Source of the DNA: Anaerolineales bacterium
GTDB lineage: Bacteria > Chloroflexota > Anaerolineae > 4572-78 > J111
Direction of reading: 5' to 3'
DNA: 6,223 bases
NCBI GenBank assembly: GCA_012032575.1
Contig: JAAUSP010000458.1
Span: 1 to 6,223, forward strand
Of the stretch, positions 1 through 6,223 are shown in pieces. Made by a program: the position numbers and the translations under genes. Positions within the stretch are counted from its first letter, which is position 1. Each line of letters opens with the position of its first letter. A model generated the notes under the pieces. It saw only the letters and a list, made by a program, of their open reading frames with translations. It did no database searches and had not been told where the DNA came from.

Positions 1-120
1 ATCCTGGAGGGCCTGGCGCGCGTGCTCGCGAAGGTCGACGAGGCGATCAAGCTCGTGCGCGCCGACCAAGGAGCCGGGCCGACAGCGCGCGAGAGCTCAA
101 GAAGCGCTTCAAGCTCGACG
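1..120 (+). pseudogene. Fragment resembling DNA gyrase / topoisomerase IV subunit A, frameshifted
   Basis: Translating from base 1 gives ILEGL, then VLAKVDEAIKLVRA. This matches the pattern 'ILEGL..aL..iDe.I.liR' in the coiled-coil part of the GyrA/ParC breakage-reunion core. The family pattern continues as 'A...L..rF.L', and that continuation (ELKKRFKLD) is found in another frame from about base 93, so one base is missing or two are extra near 91-96. After about base 120 the resemblance stops: the expected 'AIL..rL..L' does not appear in any frame. Only about 40 residues are present, with no start, no stop and no neighbouring topoisomerase sequence. It could be a real gene end, a relic, or foreign sequence joined at a contig end. 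The resemblance is from memory of the family, not a search. Confidence 0.45.
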
Positions 121-161
121 GATTCTCGGTCTATCTCGCGTTCGCGGACCGGTTCGGCGAT

Positions 162-1037
162 GTGGAACAGGCCAGCAAGAAGCCAAACGACACGCATGGC
201 AAAGATGCCGTCTCGGGCCTGACGCCGCCGCCGGGCGCGACGCTGCCCCCGCCGACCGCGACCTACACGCCCAGCTATACCCCGACCGCCACGCCGACCG
301 ACGCGCCGCGACTGGTCCAGCTTCCCACCCTCCCGCCGACGCCGACCAGCACCGCCACGGTCGTCCCAACCGCGCTACCCCTGCCAACTGCTACACCGAC
401 CCTGGCCCTGGTGATGCCGACGCCGCTGCCACCGCCAACCCTGCCGCCCACGCCCTTTCCCCCGCCCGCCGAAGCACCTATCGTGGAAGCGCCACCACCT
501 GCGATGGAAGTCGTTGAATCTGCTTTCGTGTCGCCGGTCAATCCGCCGGCTCCGGCTCCGGTACAAGCTCCGGCTCCCGCGCCGGCTCCGCCCCCGGCAG
601 TGACAGATTCGACCTTCAGTTCGCCGGTCACCCCCCCGGCTGCGGTCGCAGCGGCCCCCGTTGATTCGCCCTACGATTTTCTGCTGGCTGAATTTTTCAA
701 CAGCCCGACGACCAATGCTATCCTGGTCATTTATGTCGCCATTGTTGACCCCAACGAAATCCCTATCGGCGATATCAAAGTGGTCGGGACGCGGCTGGAC
801 CACAACCTGAGCTATGAAAGCCCGCTGTCCACCTGGCATTTTGAAGGGTACAACGCCCCCGGCGAGGTGGTCAAAAGCGGCAATGTTAAATTCGAGCCGC
901 CCAGCGGGATGGAAACGACTAACTGGATTCTTCACCTGGAAGACCCCGGCGGCAGGCGTCTCTCCGAGGATGTGCCCTTTAATACCGACGCCAACGATAA
1001 ACAGTGGTATTTTATCAAGTTTAAGCGCAAATTTTAA
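162..1037 (+). CDS. Secreted/surface-type protein with Pro/Thr-rich linker and C-terminal beta-rich domain (N-terminus uncertain)
   Basis: This is a hypothetical protein. Numbered from the GTG at 162, residues about 22-165 are low complexity. The first part is rich in Thr-Pro (TPSYTPTATPT, PTLPPTPTSTATVVPT) and the second in Pro/Ala (PAPAPVQAPAPAPAPPPA). Two copies of an 'SPV(N/T)PPA' motif lie 90 nt apart (bases 521-550 and 611-640). Residues 168-291 form a compact domain with alternating hydrophobic strands (ILVIYVAIVD, GDIKVVGT, GNVKFEPPSG, NWILHLEDPGG, QWYFIKFKRKF). It resembles the Ig-like or carboxypeptidase-regulatory-like domains on secreted Chloroflexota proteins. Such linkers usually hold a domain off the cell surface, but no signal peptide or membrane segment is visible. 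The GTG lacks a ribosome binding site, and the frame is open back to base 3, so the true start is probably upstream or lost at a chimeric join. No catalytic motif is seen. A hairpin terminator follows the stop by 22 bases. Confidence 0.6.
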   Translation: MEQASKKPNDTHGKDAVSGLTPPPGATLPPPTATYTPSYTPTATPTDAPRLVQLPTLPPTPTSTATVVPTALPLPTATPTLALVMPTPLPPPTLPPTPFPPPAEAPIVEAPPPAMEVVESAFVSPVNPPAPAPVQAPAPAPAPPPAVTDSTFSSPVTPPAAVAAAPVDSPYDFLLAEFFNSPTTNAILVIYVAIVDPNEIPIGDIKVVGTRLDHNLSYESPLSTWHFEGYNAPGEVVKSGNVKFEPPSGMETTNWILHLEDPGGRRLSEDVPFNTDANDKQWYFIKFKRKF

Positions 1038-1059
1038 CCAACCTCGAAATTTAATTTCT

Positions 1060-1096
1060 CGGAGTGCAAAAGCAAAGCTTTTGCACTCCGATTTTA
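1060..1096 (+). terminator. Strong rho-independent-type hairpin terminator
   Basis: CGGAGTGCAAAAGC (1060-1073) and GCTTTTGCACTCCG (1077-1090) are perfect reverse complements. They form a 14-bp stem closed by an AAA loop, followed by ATTTTA. The U-tract is short, but the stem is long and starts 22 bases after the upstream stop. It therefore separates the secreted-protein gene from the STAND gene. The hairpin is symmetric and could also act on the other strand, although no reverse-strand gene is seen next to it. Confidence 0.75.
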
Positions 1097-1116
1097 TCAC
1101 GCTCCATCTTCCCCGC

Positions 1117-1145
1117 TTGTATCTCCCGGCAGCGTAAGGTAAAAT
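1117..1145 (+). promoter_or_regulatory. Candidate sigma70-type promoter for the STAND-WD40 gene
   Basis: TTGTAT (1117-1122) and TAAAAT (1140-1145) are separated by exactly 17 bases. The -10 matches TATAAT at five of six positions. The -35 matches TTGACA only at TTG. Transcription would begin near 1152, giving a leader of about 50 bases. The position, just after the terminator and before the only long gene, makes it plausible. It is a prediction from consensus alone. Confidence 0.4.
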
Positions 1146-1190
1146 CAAGCTGCGTCAAATGTGAGTTTTCCCCCTCAGGCCCCAATTAAG

Positions 1191-1195
1191 AAAGG
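1191..1195 (+). promoter_or_regulatory. Ribosome binding site for the ATG at 1202
   Basis: AAAGG lies six bases before the ATG at 1202. It is a partial Shine-Dalgarno match at usual spacing. It supports this start over the internal ATG at 1232. Confidence 0.5.
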
Positions 1196-1201
1196 TTCCC
1201 G

Positions 1202-3397
1202 ATGACTGCTGTGAGTGAGTCAACTGTGGATATGGCTGCCCGCCGCAAGCAATTGATTGAGCTGACCAAAAACCTCGACATGCTCCGGGAACGGCAGGCC
1301 AAATATGGCGGCAATGCTCCCCTGGAACTGCTCAACCAGATTCAGGATCACCACGATGCGATTGACCTGCTGGAGCAAGCGCTGGCCGGCCAACTCTCCG
1401 CAGCCGAATTGAAAGAAGCGCTCAAGCCGCTGCTGCTGGCCCTGCGTGATGGCGAGGTGGTCAACATCACCGCCGAAACCTACGTGGCCGGCGACCAGGT
1501 GATCCAAAATATCACCCAACTGGCCGCCCGCGCCCTGACTACTGCTGAGGAGGCCGAAAAAGCCCAGGAAGTTATCACCCGGCGGCTGGCTCAGGGCATC
1601 GGTGATTACGTCCTGCGTCTCCAGAAGATTGCCGCCGATAAAAGCGACACCGCCGGCGGCAACCCCTACAAAGGGTTGGAGGCATACCGGCTGTGCGACG
1701 CCGAACTCTTCTATGGCCGCGATCAGGCCATCGCCGAACTGCTGGACAGGCTTCAACGCAGCCGTTTGACCATTCTTCATTCCGAGTCGGGCGCGGGCAA
1801 AAGTTCTATGCTGCAAGCGGGAATTTCGCCCCGGCTGCTGGCACAGGGACACCTGCCGGTTTACCTGCGCACCTACAACCAGCCCCCCAGCCTGGTGATC
1901 AAACAGGCTTTTTTGCCCAACTTGAGCGACATGCCCGAATTGGCTCAAACGCGCCTGCGCGATTTTTTGCGCCGCGTCACCGGTATATTAGGCCAGCCGG
2001 CCACCCTTTACCTCTTGCTGGACCAGTTTGAAGAGATTTTTACCCTGGTTGATGAACTCACTCGCGCCGCCTTTGTCGAGGAGCTGGCCGAGTGCCTGAA
2101 TGATGAAAGTCTCAATGTGCGCTGGGTCTTTTCGCTGCGGACGGAATTTTTTGGCAACATTGCCAACTTCCGGCCCACTCTGCGCAACCCGTTCGAAAAT
2201 GATTTTCGACTCAATCGCTTCACCCAGGCTGAGGCAGTTACGGTTATTACCACCCCGGCCCAACGGCAGGGCCTCAGTTTTGAGCCGGCTCTGGTTGAAG
2301 CGCTGCTGGCTGATCTGCGCGACCCTGACAGCGACGAAGTTTCGCCGGCCCAACTCCAACTGATCTGCTCGGCCCTGTACACCTTCTTCCGCCAGCGACA
2401 CGAAGCCGCACCTGGCCTGCCGCCGGTAATTACGCTCCAGATGTATCAGGCTGAGGGACGGGCCAAGGGTATCCTGCGCAACCACCTGGGCCGGGTGCTC
2501 CGCGCCACGGCCACCAAAGCCGAGCGAGAAACCGCCCGCCGGCTTTTGATGGCCCTGGTTTCCGCCGACCAGCGGCGCATCCGCCGGACCAAAGGCGAGT
2601 TACAGACGGCCCTGGGGGATTATCTGCCGCAAGTCAAAAGCCTGGACAAGCTGCTTGACCACCTGCTTGAAAACCGTCTTTTGAACGTGGAAAAGGATGA
2701 ACAGACCGACGAGCCAGCCTACGAACTGGCTCACGATTACTTGCTGATCGAACTCCGGCTCGACCCGGAAACCCAGGCCCGCCGCGCCGCCGAAGAACTG
2801 CTGAAACAGGAGTTGGCCGCTTACAAGCGTTTTGGCGCACAAGCCCTGTTGAGCGCCGAAAAATTTGCCATCATCAACAGCCAAAGCCAATTTTTACGGC
2901 TGGACAGTGAGGCCAAAGAATTTCTGCGCCGCAGCCAGATTGCTGTCAACCGGGTTAAGTTGCAGTGGTACGGCTTGATCGTTGCGGTGGTCCTGCTCAT
3001 CATTGGCGCAGCCGTGGCTGTAGCCATTTTTCAGGGCCGGGCGGCTGAGGAGCGCGCCTTTGCCGCTGCTACTGCCCAGGCCGGCGAGGCCCAGGCTCAA
3101 CTGGCCCAGGCCACTGCCCTGGCCGAAGCAGACCGGGCCTTGAACGCCCAAAGCACCGCCCAGGCTGAAGCCGATCGAGCGCTCCTGGCCGAATCTCAAG
3201 CCAGAGTGCTGGTTAACCGGGTGACTCTGGCTCAAGCGACCGCCCAGGCGGAAAAAGTAATTGCCGAGAGCAACGCCGCCGAAACCCAGCGCCAGGCCAA
3301 CCTGGCCAACGCCCGTCAGTTGACCAGCCAGGCCCAGACGGTTTTGGCTGAAAGCCGGAACAAGCCCTGCTTTTACTTTTTGAAGCCCAAAGATTAA
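1202..3397 (+). CDS. nSTAND-type NTPase with transmembrane helix and coiled coil (N-terminal part of frameshifted STAND-WD40 gene)
   Basis: STAND proteins are nucleotide-dependent switches; ligand binding to the repeat domain is thought to trigger oligomerisation. Residues 1-150 are mostly helical, with a strand-like stretch [19 protein letters not shown] (86-104) of a kind common in front of these NTPases. No effector enzyme is visible. The NTPase starts at NPYKGLEAY (154-162) and FYGRD (170-174). Walker A is SESGAGKSS (194-202) with Lys200, and Walker B is [10 protein letters not shown] (269-278). A sensor-like arginine sits in SLRTEFFG (311-318). A winged-helix-like region ends in YELAHDYLL (507-515). 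A hydrophobic segment at 590-610 ([20 protein letters not shown] core) is a single membrane span. Residues 612-719 are Ala/Gln/Glu-rich and probably a coiled coil. The last residues after ESRN ([11 protein letters not shown]) are out-of-frame sequence. The expected continuation, [20 protein letters not shown], lies one frame over. Confidence 0.85.
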
Positions 3398-3706
3398 CCC
3401 AAACGCTGGAGGTTGAACGAGCCATCGGGCAGGTTCCTTATCGTTATTTCCCGATGAAAGCCACCCTCGAAGGCCATACTAATTGGGTTAACAGTGTCGC
3501 CTGGAGCCCCGACGGCAAACAATTGGCTTCGGCCTCTGGCGATCAATCTATTATCATTGGGATGTAGCCACCGATCAGCCGGTTCTTACCCTCGAAGGTC
3601 ACACAAATGGCATCTACCTCGTCGCCTGGAGTCCTGATGGGAAACAACTGGCCTCGGCGTCAGCGGATCAAACGATTATCATTGGGATGCAGCGACTGGG
3701 CGACAA
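3352..3706 (+). pseudogene. Frameshifted middle segment carrying the end of the linker and WD40 repeats 1-2
   Basis: This stretch looks non-coding only because the frame changes twice. In the frame of base 3361 it reads [12 protein letters not shown], then a conserved-looking hinge ending in [15 protein letters not shown], then WD repeat 1 until a false stop at 3565-3567. In the frame of base 3558 it resumes as [15 protein letters not shown] and continues through WD repeat 2. At 3683 it passes to the frame used by the next segment ([15 protein letters not shown]). Both internal shifts are in TATCATTGGGATG, where the intact repeats have one more base before GG (ATTTGGGAT or ATCTGGGAT). The ATG at 3454 is internal to the protein and not a real start. 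Confidence 0.85.
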
Positions 3707-5100
3707 GTGGATGTCCTACGCGGCCACTCTGATGAGGTTATCAGTGTCGCCTGGAATCCTGATGGTCGGCAGTTAGCCTCGGCCTCGAGCGATCAGACTG
3801 TAATTATCTGGGATGTGGTGACCGGCAAGCTGAAAACGAGGCTGCGCGGTCATACAAGAACTGTTGCCAGTGTTGCCTGGAGTCTGGATGGCCAGCGGTT
3901 AGCTTCGGCGGCAGAGGATCACACCGTTATTATTTGGAATGTAGCGGCGCGCGGCCAGCTATGACCCTACGGGACCACACCGATATTGTCTACAACGTGG
4001 TCTGGAGTCCCGACGGTCAGCAGTTAGCCTCAGTCTCGGCTGATCAAACCATTATTGTCTGGGATGCGCAAACCGGCCAGCCCCAACGGGTACTCCGGGG
4101 CCACAGTAGTTGGGTTTTTGGCCTGGGCTGGACCCCCGATGGCCGGCAGTTGGCTTCGGGTTCGCAAGATCAAACCGTAATTATCTGGGATACGGCTACC
4201 GGCCAGGCAGCAGCTACCTTGCACGGTCACACAGACCGGGTAAAAAGTGTCGCCTGGAGTCCAGATGGCCGGCAGTTAGCCTCAGCCTCGCTCGACCAAA
4301 CCATTATTATTTGGGATGTAACCAGCGGTCCCATCTCGTTTATACTCCAAGGTCACACCGGTCGAGTGTTCGATGTGGCCTGGAGTCCAAATGGGCGGCA
4401 GTTGGCTTCAACTTCAGATGATACCTCTGTTATCATCTGGAATACAGCTACGATGCAGCCCAAAAGGACGCTCCTCGGTCACACCGATTCAGCCCTCGCC
4501 GTCGCCTGGAGTCCGGATGGCCGGCAATTGGCCTCCGCTTCGTATGATCGGACTATCATCATCTGGGATGCAGCCAGTGGTCAGCCCCAGAAAACTCTGG
4601 CGGATGACACCGGCTGGATCCTTGATGTGGCCTGGAGTCCGGATGGTCAGCAGTTAGCCTCAGCTTCGGACGCTCAAACCGTGATTATTTGGGATACGGC
4701 CACAGGTCAGCCGATCACTACGCTTCGCGGCCATAAAAATATCGTTACCAGTGTCGCCTGGAGTCCAGACGGCCGGCAGTTGGCCTCCGCATCAGAAGAT
4801 CAAACGATTATCCTCTGGGATGCAGTGACGCATCAACTCAAAAACACCCTCCACGGCCATACCGATTGGATCATCCGCCTGACCTGGAGTCCGGATGGAA
4901 AGCGCCTGGCTTCAGCGGCAGCCGATCAAACCATGATCATTTGGAATGCAGCTTCGGGTCATCCGGTCGCTACGCTTCAAGGCCACAATGATCAGATTAA
5001 CAGTCTCGCCTGGAGCCCCGATGGACAACTATTGGCGTCAGCCTCGGATGACCGGACCATTCGTTTAATAAACACCCGCTACATGCAGCCTTCGTGCCAG
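3466..5100 (+). repeat. Thirteen tandem WD40-coding repeats, 126-nt period
   Basis: Repeat starts (Leu of 'L.GH') are at 3466, 3591, 3716, 3842, 3967, 4093, 4219, 4345, 4471, 4597, 4723, 4849 and 4975. Spacing is 126 nt except 125 after the first, second and fourth. The DNA core GTCGCCTGGAGTCC.GATGG recurs with few changes, while the part coding residues 5-10 varies strongly. Thirteen is not a multiple of the usual seven blades per propeller. The array could fold as seven plus six, or use a degenerate extra blade, or a repeat could have been lost in evolution or assembly. Confidence 0.95.
3707..3964 (+). pseudogene. WD40 repeats 3-4 of the broken STAND-WD40 gene
   Basis: The GTG at 3707 is not a natural start. 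The same frame carries WD40 sequence upstream to 3683, and there is no ribosome binding site. The piece holds repeats 3 (from 3716) and 4 (from 3842), with cores [18 protein letters not shown] and SVAWSLDGQRLASAAEDH. It ends at a false stop (3962-3964) because one base is missing between about 3940 and 3960. Restoring one base (for example CAGCTATG to CAGCCTATG) gives ARGQPMTLRDH and a 42-residue repeat 4. The exact place of the missing base cannot be fixed from the sequence. Confidence 0.8.
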
Positions 5101-5799
5101 TGGGTCACGCGCAACCTGAGCGCGGCGGAATGGGACTTCTATCTGCCGGCCGGGATGCCCTACCATCGGACCTGCCCCGACCGGCCCGTTCACCCCAGCC
5201 TCATCGAAGCGGCCCGCGACCTGGCCCGAGCCGGTCAAATTGACGAGGCCATCGCCCAACTCAAACATCTGCTCAGCGTTGACCCCACCCTCGATCTGGA
5301 CCCGGCAGTGGAAGCACAGCAGGCATACCAGGAGGCGGTGCAATACCTGTTGGACCAGGCCGGAGAAGAAGCGCAAGCCGGTGATGTCGAAGCAGCCACG
5401 ACCACTTTAGAGCAAGCTGTCGCCCTGGACCCCACCCTCAGCCTCGACCCGCAGGCGGAAGCCCAACGCCTGGCCCAACCGACTTTTGAAAATAGCCTGG
5501 AAGCGGCAGTTAAGGCCGCACAAAATAACGATACCGAGACGGCCCAGGCAAAATTTGAGGAAGCGATTGAGTTCGCCGCTCCGCTCGACTCTGCCGAGTC
5601 CTGGCATGCCCTGTGTGACGCCGGAACCCGGCACGATCTGGCCGAAATAGTTCTCGACGCCTGCGACAAAGCCATCGAGTTGGAGCCGGACAACGGCCTG
5701 TATTACAACAGTCGCGGTATCGCCCGGCTGCAATTGGGCGATCAGCAAGGGGCGCAGGATGATTTTGCCAAATTCGAGGCGTGGCTGGAAGCGGAGTAG
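3934..5799 (+). CDS. WD40 repeats 5-13 plus conserved cap and TPR-like tail (C-terminal part of frameshifted STAND-WD40 gene)
   Basis: This would be the sensor end of the protein. The ATG at 3934 is an out-of-frame reading of repeat 4 (TGGAATGTA), so it is not a true start; the first real sequence here is MTLRDH from 3961. Residues 12-389 are nine WD40 repeats of exactly 42 residues. Each is built on '[22 protein letters not shown].atgqp...L.GH'. Blade 10 has lost the GH pair (LADDTGW) and blade 5 has DH. Residues 390-418 (CQWVTRNLSAAEWDFYL, YHRTCPDRP) match a cap that often ends WD40 arrays in STAND proteins. The tail has two copies, 49 residues apart, of an 'AG..dEA...L...l.vDPTL.LDP..EAQ' unit (from 431 and 480). 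It also has a TPR-like end (YYNSRGIARLQLGDQQGAQDDF). WD40 and TPR both mediate protein binding. No enzyme motif is seen. Confidence 0.85.
   Translation: MECSGARPAMTLRDHTDIVYNVVWSPDGQQLASVSADQTIIVWDAQTGQPQRVLRGHSSWVFGLGWTPDGRQLASGSQDQTVIIWDTATGQAAATLHGHTDRVKSVAWSPDGRQLASASLDQTIIIWDVTSGPISFILQGHTGRVFDVAWSPNGRQLASTSDDTSVIIWNTATMQPKRTLLGHTDSALAVAWSPDGRQLASASYDRTIIIWDAASGQPQKTLADDTGWILDVAWSPDGQQLASASDAQTVIIWDTATGQPITTLRGHKNIVTSVAWSPDGRQLASASEDQTIILWDAVTHQLKNTLHGHTDWIIRLTWSPDGKRLASAAADQTMIIWNAASGHPVATLQGHNDQINSLAWSPDGQLLASASDDRTIRLINTRYMQPSCQWVTRNLSAAEWDFYLPAGMPYHRTCPDRPVHPSLIEAARDLARAGQIDEAIAQLKHLLSVDPTLDLDPAVEAQQAYQEAVQYLLDQAGEEAQAGDVEAATTTLEQAVALDPTLSLDPQAEAQRLAQPTFENSLEAAVKAAQNNDTETAQAKFEEAIEFAAPLDSAESWHALCDAGTRHDLAEIVLDACDKAIELEPDNGLYYNSRGIARLQLGDQQGAQDDFAKFEAWLEAE
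5224..5454 (+). repeat. Two TPR-like coding repeats, 147-nt period
   Basis: Units beginning at 5224 (ARAGQIDEAIAQLKHLL) and 5371 (AQAGDVEAATTTLEQAV) are related at protein level. Each ends in DPTLDLDP or DPTLSLDP. The matching DNA GACCCCACCCTC occurs at 5281 and 5428, exactly 147 nt (49 residues) apart. The period is longer than the 34 residues of a standard TPR because an 'LDLDP..EAQ' extension follows each helix pair. Confidence 0.7.
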
Positions 5800-5862
5800 C
5801 CGGAGTACAGCTTGCATCAGTTCGTGACGAAATCAAAGCAAGGAGATACTTTCGTAGGCGTT

Positions 5863-5955
5863 ATGTCATTCCGACCGCAGGGAGGAATCTTCGTTGCCGT
5901 TGCCTAAAATATTATGGCGAATAAGAGGATTTCTCGCTGGCGCTCGAAATGACAT
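5863..5955. repeat. 93-bp imperfect inverted-repeat element (MITE/REP-like)
   Basis: The left arm begins ATGTCATTCCGACCGC and runs to 5892. The right arm (5925-5955) ends GGCGCTCGAAATGACAT. The reverse complement of the right arm starts ATGTCATTTCGAGCGCC, so the arms pair over about 30 bases with a few mismatches and one bulge, around a 32-base centre. The outermost eight bases are identical. The style, 'GTCATT.CGA...AATC' mirrored by 'GATT...TCG.AATGAC', is that of short dispersed intergenic repeats in many bacteria. As RNA it would fold into a long hairpin and could end transcription from the STAND gene. It has no coding content. Confidence 0.75.
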
Positions 5956-6039
5956 GCCCAGAATCATGCCCCTCAAATCGTGATGAATTTACGCACCCCT
6001 GTACTTAGATCAATCTTTGCCATACAGCCTCAGGATAAC

Positions 6040-6223
6040 ATGCTTAAAAGTCTGCCTCGCTCGTTTAGTCCCGTTTTTGTGGCAATTTTAATTTGCCTCA
6101 CAGCCTTCGCTGTTATTGCCCTCCTCTCCGACCGGGTCTTTGAACACCTCCCCCACTCCGAAGACGAAGCGGCCTATCTTTTCCAGGCCAAAGTTTTTGC
6201 CCAAAATCATCTCACTGTGCCGA
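6040..6223 (+). CDS. Membrane glycosyltransferase-like protein (GT39/ArnT-type), N-terminal fragment
   Basis: The frame runs off the window end; only 61 residues are seen from the ATG at 6040. A short basic start (MLKSLPRSF) precedes a transmembrane helix (PVFVAILICLTAFAVIALL). Next come HLPHSEDEAAYLFQAK and VFAQNHLTVP. A helix followed by an acidic 'P...DE..YlfQAk.la.g.l..p' loop is typical of membrane-embedded glycosyltransferases of the GT39/ArnT/PMT type. These move sugars from polyprenyl-phosphate donors, and the acidic pair in the first outer loop is functionally important. AGGA at 6032-6035 lies four bases before the ATG. An upstream in-frame ATG (5983) would add 19 polar residues and lacks a ribosome binding site. 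The exact substrate cannot be told from this fragment. Confidence 0.6.
   Translation, partial: MLKSLPRSFSPVFVAILICLTAFAVIALLSDRVFEHLPHSEDEAAYLFQAKVFAQNHLTVP

Follow-up and report, generated by a model that had tools for sequence, protein, structure and literature searches.

An Anaerolineales gene for a predicted membrane STAND receptor, probably misread at four sites, and its N-terminal module resembling effector-associated domains

The 6,223-nucleotide stretch of DNA analysed here (the window; Anaerolineales bacterium, assembly GCA_012032575.1, contig JAAUSP010000458.1) carries on its plus strand, at positions 1202 to 5799, one STAND receptor gene spread over five frame pieces, A to E, which encode in order an N-terminal module, an nSTAND1 NTPase, a transmembrane (TM) helix, a WD40 array and a TPR tail. 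An initial annotation, made from the letters alone, had proposed a single STAND-WD40-TPR protein hidden by four one-base losses, and the single gene is borne out by the collinearity of the pieces, by Pfam matches to nSTAND1, WD40 and TPR, and by five uninterrupted relatives. It had also predicted that automated annotation would conceal this architecture. Open reading frame (ORF) calling across the gene indeed returns separate pieces of 731, 85 and 621 amino acids, and the protein database holds the 731-residue front standing alone as P0121, an entry with one member. Because P0121 sits on a 6223-bp contig, the window is the whole of a short contig from an Anaerolineales-like member of the Chloroflexota. 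With the front piece presented as a finished protein, the architecture of the receptor disappears from view, and comparable errors will conceal other repeat proteins. The kind of gene is already known, namely an nSTAND1-WD40 protein of Chloroflexota, and its breaks are most likely an artefact; the module at its front, rather than the breaks, is the lead of interest.

Relatives were gathered by a contig scan of genomes (at least 588 stretches, 540 of these relatives, with 80 kept) and by searches of the protein database, each of which scored about 8,000 candidates; the best 120 of 314 matches were listed. The best genome match, L001 (JABTUK010000003.1, Anaerolineales bacterium H5_CFX5), has 86% identity over all 717 residues queried and carries the gene as one uninterrupted ORF; positions 282-6223 of the window are collinear with 7046-13250 of L001. 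Its protein is P0001, entered as ‘hypothetical protein DPW09_18805’ of an Anaerolineae bacterium. The five best full-length relatives among the matches listed, P0001-P0005, have 1576-1578 amino acids and read straight through. P0003, the closest among these matches, is 94.5, 93.4, 100, 97.6 and 87.9% identical to pieces A-E, where the first value spans the first 714 residues and the last counts a 41-residue gap. Chloroflexota nSTAND1-WD40 proteins such as P0001 and P0003 share the domain order of the window gene at 66-95% identity, and their locus neighbours are the same in L001 and L104; the window copy differs from them in being broken at four places and in having 13 rather than 14 WD units. 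According to the initial annotation, homologues that naturally end near residue 720 would have spoken for separate genes. None of the five nearest full-length relatives ends there, whereas the wider family does contain such proteins: P0132, P0144 and P0147, nSTAND1 proteins of about 760 amino acids that align to about three quarters of the query at 46-48% identity and in some cases lie on long contigs, have no WD40 among their precomputed domains. No same-strain copy of the gene was found in 25 genomes of the order, the best DNA identity being 86% (G001) and then 71% (G002).

The nSTAND1 NTPase (residues 155-516; positions 1664 to 2749, plus strand) matches PF20703 at E 1.7e-57, with 196.2 bits against a cut-off of 27.1, and keeps both a motif at residue 193, which we take to be the P-loop, and a stretch at residue 269 that is presumably Walker-B-like. 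Hydropathy in the window piece and in two relatives points to a single TM-like helix (residues 592-610; 2975 to 3031, plus strand), whose start is residue 592 in both the window and L001 and residue 589 in the G002 protein. Because more lysines and arginines precede the helix than follow it (3, 3 and 4 versus 2, 1 and 1 in the window, L001 and the G002 protein), the NTPase probably lies inside the cell and the WD40 array outside. The TPR tail (5110 to 5796, plus strand) matches PF07719 TPR_2 at E 5.7e-10, above its cut-off. A search of the first 717 residues against PDB sequences returned nothing at E 0.01.

At every break the frame drops by one, and all four changes are single-base losses in the same direction, as the initial annotation had noted. 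Alignment to the intact L001 places the lost bases after positions 3350, 3556, 3681 and 3951, within plus-strand frame-change zones at 3344 to 3360 (between pieces A and B), 3544 to 3566 (B and C), 3675 to 3691 (C and D) and 3938 to 3975 (D and E). Three of the ranges given earlier, 3550-3562, 3678-3688 and 3940-3962, contain the loss; the remaining one, 3353-3367, lies just downstream of it. Spacings between WD motifs of 125, 125, 126 and 125 nt, followed by eight of 126 nt, agree with the earlier statement that three breaks in the array shorten a 126-nt unit to 125. Equally sound was the arithmetic by which four added bases restore whole codons without an internal stop: 4598 nt plus four make 4602 nt, or 1534 codons, and none of the five pieces contains a stop. 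Other length differences from L001 within the gene are limited to 123 nt and to 12 nt at the stop codon, with 3, 15 and 15 nt in the upstream gene. The four losses fall within 601 nt (P 0.008 for four random places in the gene), and in L001 the corresponding columns belong to homopolymer runs of 4, 3, 3 and 1 bases; the second and third losses share one short sequence in two adjacent WD units. That all four run in one direction has a chance of 2 x 1/16 and is weak alone; the clustering and the intact relatives weigh more.

The WD40 array (3460 to 5085, plus strand), delimited by Pfam WD40 matches in the two later pieces scanned, by motif spacing and by comparison of the units, has 13 units of about 126 nt, versus exactly 14 in all five intact relatives. 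Unit 9 of the window corresponds to unit 9 of P0003 and unit 10 to its unit 11, so that unit 10 of P0003, of 41 residues, is missing; the site of the absent unit (4501 to 4627, plus strand) coincides with the 123-nt gap relative to L001. The 1533 residues initially proposed therefore stand as the reading of one gene with four losses, but not as its natural length: with the 41 residues of the absent unit and a tail 2 residues shorter than that of P0003, the sum of 1533, 41 and 2 is 1576, exactly as long as P0003. Within P0003, the most similar pair of units is 10 and 11 (0.78), and either an assembly collapse or a real recombination may account for the absence. A model of the L001 array has 57 strands (pLDDT 92.8, pTM 0.66); its fold matches include 2ymu at rank 1, Apaf-1 (3sfz) at rank 7 and AIP1 (1nr0) at rank 13, and about half of it fits two-propeller structures at once (TMq 0.44-0.52). 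Two propellers of seven blades each agree with the 14 units of all five relatives and with this model, whereas the window itself has 13, which would leave one propeller one blade short. Fungal NACHT-WD40 receptors of the HET-E/HNWD type (PMC2873952, PMC12222747) share a STAND NTPase and a WD40 array with the present gene. Set against them, the number of units here is 14 in five of five relatives, the mean identity of units within one protein is 0.60, and unit order is kept by P0003 (13 of 13 window units) and P0001 (12 of 13) and lost relative to P0004 and P0005.

The left end of the window (1 to 281, no strand assigned) does not align to the L001 locus, to which homology begins at position 282, and is probably a joined, foreign fragment. 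Roughly its first 120 positions resemble a type II topoisomerase A subunit, with a possible fifth frame change inside them, and are followed by unplaced sequence. In PDB, residues 1-25 of frame 1 have eight weak sequence matches (E 0.27-2.4); of these, seven are A-type subunits of type II topoisomerases, aligned from query residue 1. For the second frame piece the likeness was seen by eye only, against L107 and L108; with a looser pattern, the segment appeared in these two alone of six. Positions 1-1200 found no match among phages and the left end none among plasmids, where tblastn with its two frame pieces was likewise negative.

Whether the gene is broken or misread bears on whether the strain has a working receptor. 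Rates of nonsynonymous to synonymous substitution (dN/dS) were counted in pieces A-E only, excluding the codons beside the four changes. Relative to L001, dN/dS is 0.151 before the first break (bootstrap 0.116-0.194) and 0.172 after it (0.136-0.214), with overlapping intervals; the part between the changes gives 0.125 (0.070-0.200) and the part downstream of the last one 0.189 (0.147-0.245). L001 and the G002 protein give 0.160 between them, and the window against the G002 protein 0.216 in piece A and 0.114 in piece E, where silent sites are near saturation. The gene is thus under purifying selection, without the relaxation in the broken part that an old pseudogene should display. On this evidence, we regard it as very likely that the four breaks are errors of reading or assembly rather than decay, because dN/dS is low, the losses are clustered, base runs accompany them, the left end appears joined and the relatives are intact. 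As an explanation of the whole, a membrane STAND receptor gene, uninterrupted in relatives and misread here in an error-prone stretch of a probably joined contig, is, in our view, the best and a likely one, and the missing WD unit is perhaps also an error of reading or assembly. Fragmentation of genes by frame errors is a known trait of long-read assemblies (PMC12007338) and would apply here if the contig came from such an assembly. Several observations weigh against misreading in a joined contig. A very recent real loss would leave identical dN/dS; one of the four losses lies outside any base run; and identity to P0003 is 100% in piece C and 97.6% in piece D, so that the stretch is not poor as to substitutions. 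At the left end, the likeness to topoisomerases is weak, with a best E of 0.27; the second frame piece has no match in PDB, and set against the topoisomerases of G001 and G002 the left end does not score above chance rows.

A genuine pseudogene of very recent origin, in which the four losses and the loss of the WD unit exist in the strain and the receptor is dead there, appears unlikely. Four losses and one lost unit within a single gene fit such a history, one damaging event could leave clustered losses, the similarity of units 10 and 11 of P0003 is what real recombination would lead one to expect, and low dN/dS is compatible with a recent break. However, dN/dS is not raised after the first break, no additional stop has appeared in any frame piece, and protein identity to P0003 is not relaxed between the breaks. 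Far less probable are two natural genes, one for an nSTAND1 protein of about 731 amino acids and one for a WD40-TPR protein: the ORF layout and the proteins of about 760 amino acids in the wider family would suit them, but the five nearest relatives are single proteins, and the pieces between 3352 and 3960 occupy three frames yet keep 93-100% identity to P0003. For this lineage we reject a natural split in view of the intact relatives. A programmed or phase-variable change of frame, by which slippage in base runs or ribosomal shifting would toggle the receptor, could draw on the three losses that fall in runs of 3-4 bases in the relative and on the short sequence of adjoining units shared by the second and third changes. 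One protein would nevertheless require four separate shifts where the relatives require none, and usual phase-variable tracts are much longer than runs of 3-4 bases; as the relatives read through without any shift, we reject this mechanism too, and hold it to be the most improbable of all.

Misread or not, the gene begins with a module (residues 10-83; 1229 to 1450, plus strand) that recurs in other proteins and was delimited with an alignment of 50 copies (A1), an AF2 model and its copies elsewhere. Over its length of about 63-74 residues it is predicted to form a helical hairpin and a third, short helix (AF2 pLDDT 89.4). Copies occur at 12, 16 and 10 places in G001, G002 and G006, and 8 of the family's 12 genomes have the module; among 300 other genomes drawn from the phylum, 3 were positive in a single-sequence search and 12 in a profile search at E 1e-6. 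Most of the 45 module-bearing ORFs collected have it near the N-terminus, and in L172, L180, L181 and L182 it is C-terminal. Partner domains were sought with Pfam in 38 of these ORFs; of the other seven, L172 was covered in part, and L001, L104, L096, L155, L160 and L163 stood outside the scan of whole ORFs. Among the 38, FGE-sulfatase was found in seven, five of which had nothing else, strong nSTAND1 in three, and SIR2_2, NB-ARC and nSTAND2 in two each; others carried NACHT or TPR, two had TCAD2 below cut-off, and six gave nothing at E 0.01. As it is common to a dozen or more proteins per genome, the module offers a handle on receptor partners in uncultured Chloroflexota.

The effector-associated domains (EADs) of Kaur et al. 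are described (PMC7159879) as small modules with many copies per genome, borne by STAND cores and effectors. The present module, too, is small, lies at a protein end without enzymatic features, and has many copies per genome on core NTPases and on effector or signalling proteins. Like EAD1-EAD12 of Kaur et al. 2020 and 2021 (PMC7159879, PMC8195603), it is helical, terminal and multi-copy, and its carriers include STAND cores as well as FGE-like and SIR2 proteins. It differs from them in fitting no Pfam family: in the scan of 50 copies no family matched more than four, with a best E of 0.0003 to Med4, and no EAD family was among the 25 of 64 families shown. Comparison with P0035, an EAD1-bearing protein, gave a probability of 1.1% and no alignment. 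A profile search of PDB recovered only designed TPR helices and, from unrelated proteins, short helical segments, and a fold search with the hairpin returned nothing at E 0.001, with middling Z rows. As to a six-helix death fold, the model shows a hairpin and a third, short helix, and the fold rows, being middling, say little. The module thus appears EAD-like in its behaviour, compared as it was with named EADs through Pfam and one EAD1-bearing protein, and a search of the literature on effector-associated domains in Chloroflexota found nothing related. That it represents an undescribed EAD family is a possibility we put forward with some doubt.

Three arrangements of module genes were seen beside these. 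In L172 (17699-18649) and L183 (G002:C4), four tandem copies stand at the C-terminus of an open frame of 5714 residues, preceded by a weak pre-toxin-like match (PT-TG, below cut-off). L101 (2051-6383, in G001) has a module-SIR2_2 gene and, overlapping it directly downstream, a long ORF with an nSTAND-like NTPase at its start, resembling a two-gene STAND system. In L095 (G001) two module genes adjoin, of which one is NACHT-like but lacks a clear match in Pfam and the other encodes NB-ARC and TPR.

The nSTAND1 domain, the TM helix with its flanking charges, the two-propeller matches and the copies of the module with varied partners suggest a mechanism, which we propose tentatively and which starts from the observed domains, intact relatives, purifying selection and shared module. 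Two seven-bladed WD40 propellers and the TPR tail would bind a ligand outside the membrane; the single helix and a coiled coil would relay the signal to the nSTAND1 NTPase within the cell, where nucleotide exchange would drive oligomerisation. The clustered N-terminal modules could then recruit, by homotypic contact, the other module-bearing proteins of the cell (FGE-like, SIR2, NACHT, NB-ARC and TPR), which would produce the response. Two points speak against this scheme: three window proteins matched no PADLOC model of known anti-phage defence at 1e-3, and the genes beside the locus are retained in three lineages, unlike those of mobile defence genes. The layout of a small adaptor module, a STAND-type NTPase and two WD40 propellers is shared with Apaf-1 (3sfz), from which the present protein differs in having nSTAND1 in place of NB-ARC, a TM helix that separates the NTPase from the propellers, a TPR tail, and a predicted hairpin where Apaf-1 has a death fold; the likeness is a works-like analogy only. 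It is conceivable, though we would not lean on it, that an undescribed EAD family, which has expanded to up to 16 places per genome in a single family-level group of Anaerolineales-like Chloroflexota, wires outward-facing double-WD40 membrane STAND receptors to a private set of partners (FGE-like, SIR2, NACHT and TPR proteins), as a membrane-anchored bacterial counterpart of Apaf-1 in layout.

The STAND gene is flanked on both sides by genes that adjoin it also in L001 and L104; those of L001 are kept in G002. Downstream begins a membrane-protein gene (first 60 codons compared, 6043 to 6222, plus strand), with 65% identity to L001 in these codons and 68% between L001 and L104 over 595 columns; the membrane protein has no match in Pfam, nor does the upstream protein of L001. 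Of the upstream gene the window holds the 3' part (282 to 1037, plus strand), which encodes a Pro/Thr-rich linker and a conserved C-terminal domain with 81% identity to the L001 gene over 256 aligned residues, at a dN/dS of 0.114. In L001, where the upstream gene occupies positions 6734-7798, its product has a lipoprotein-like start.

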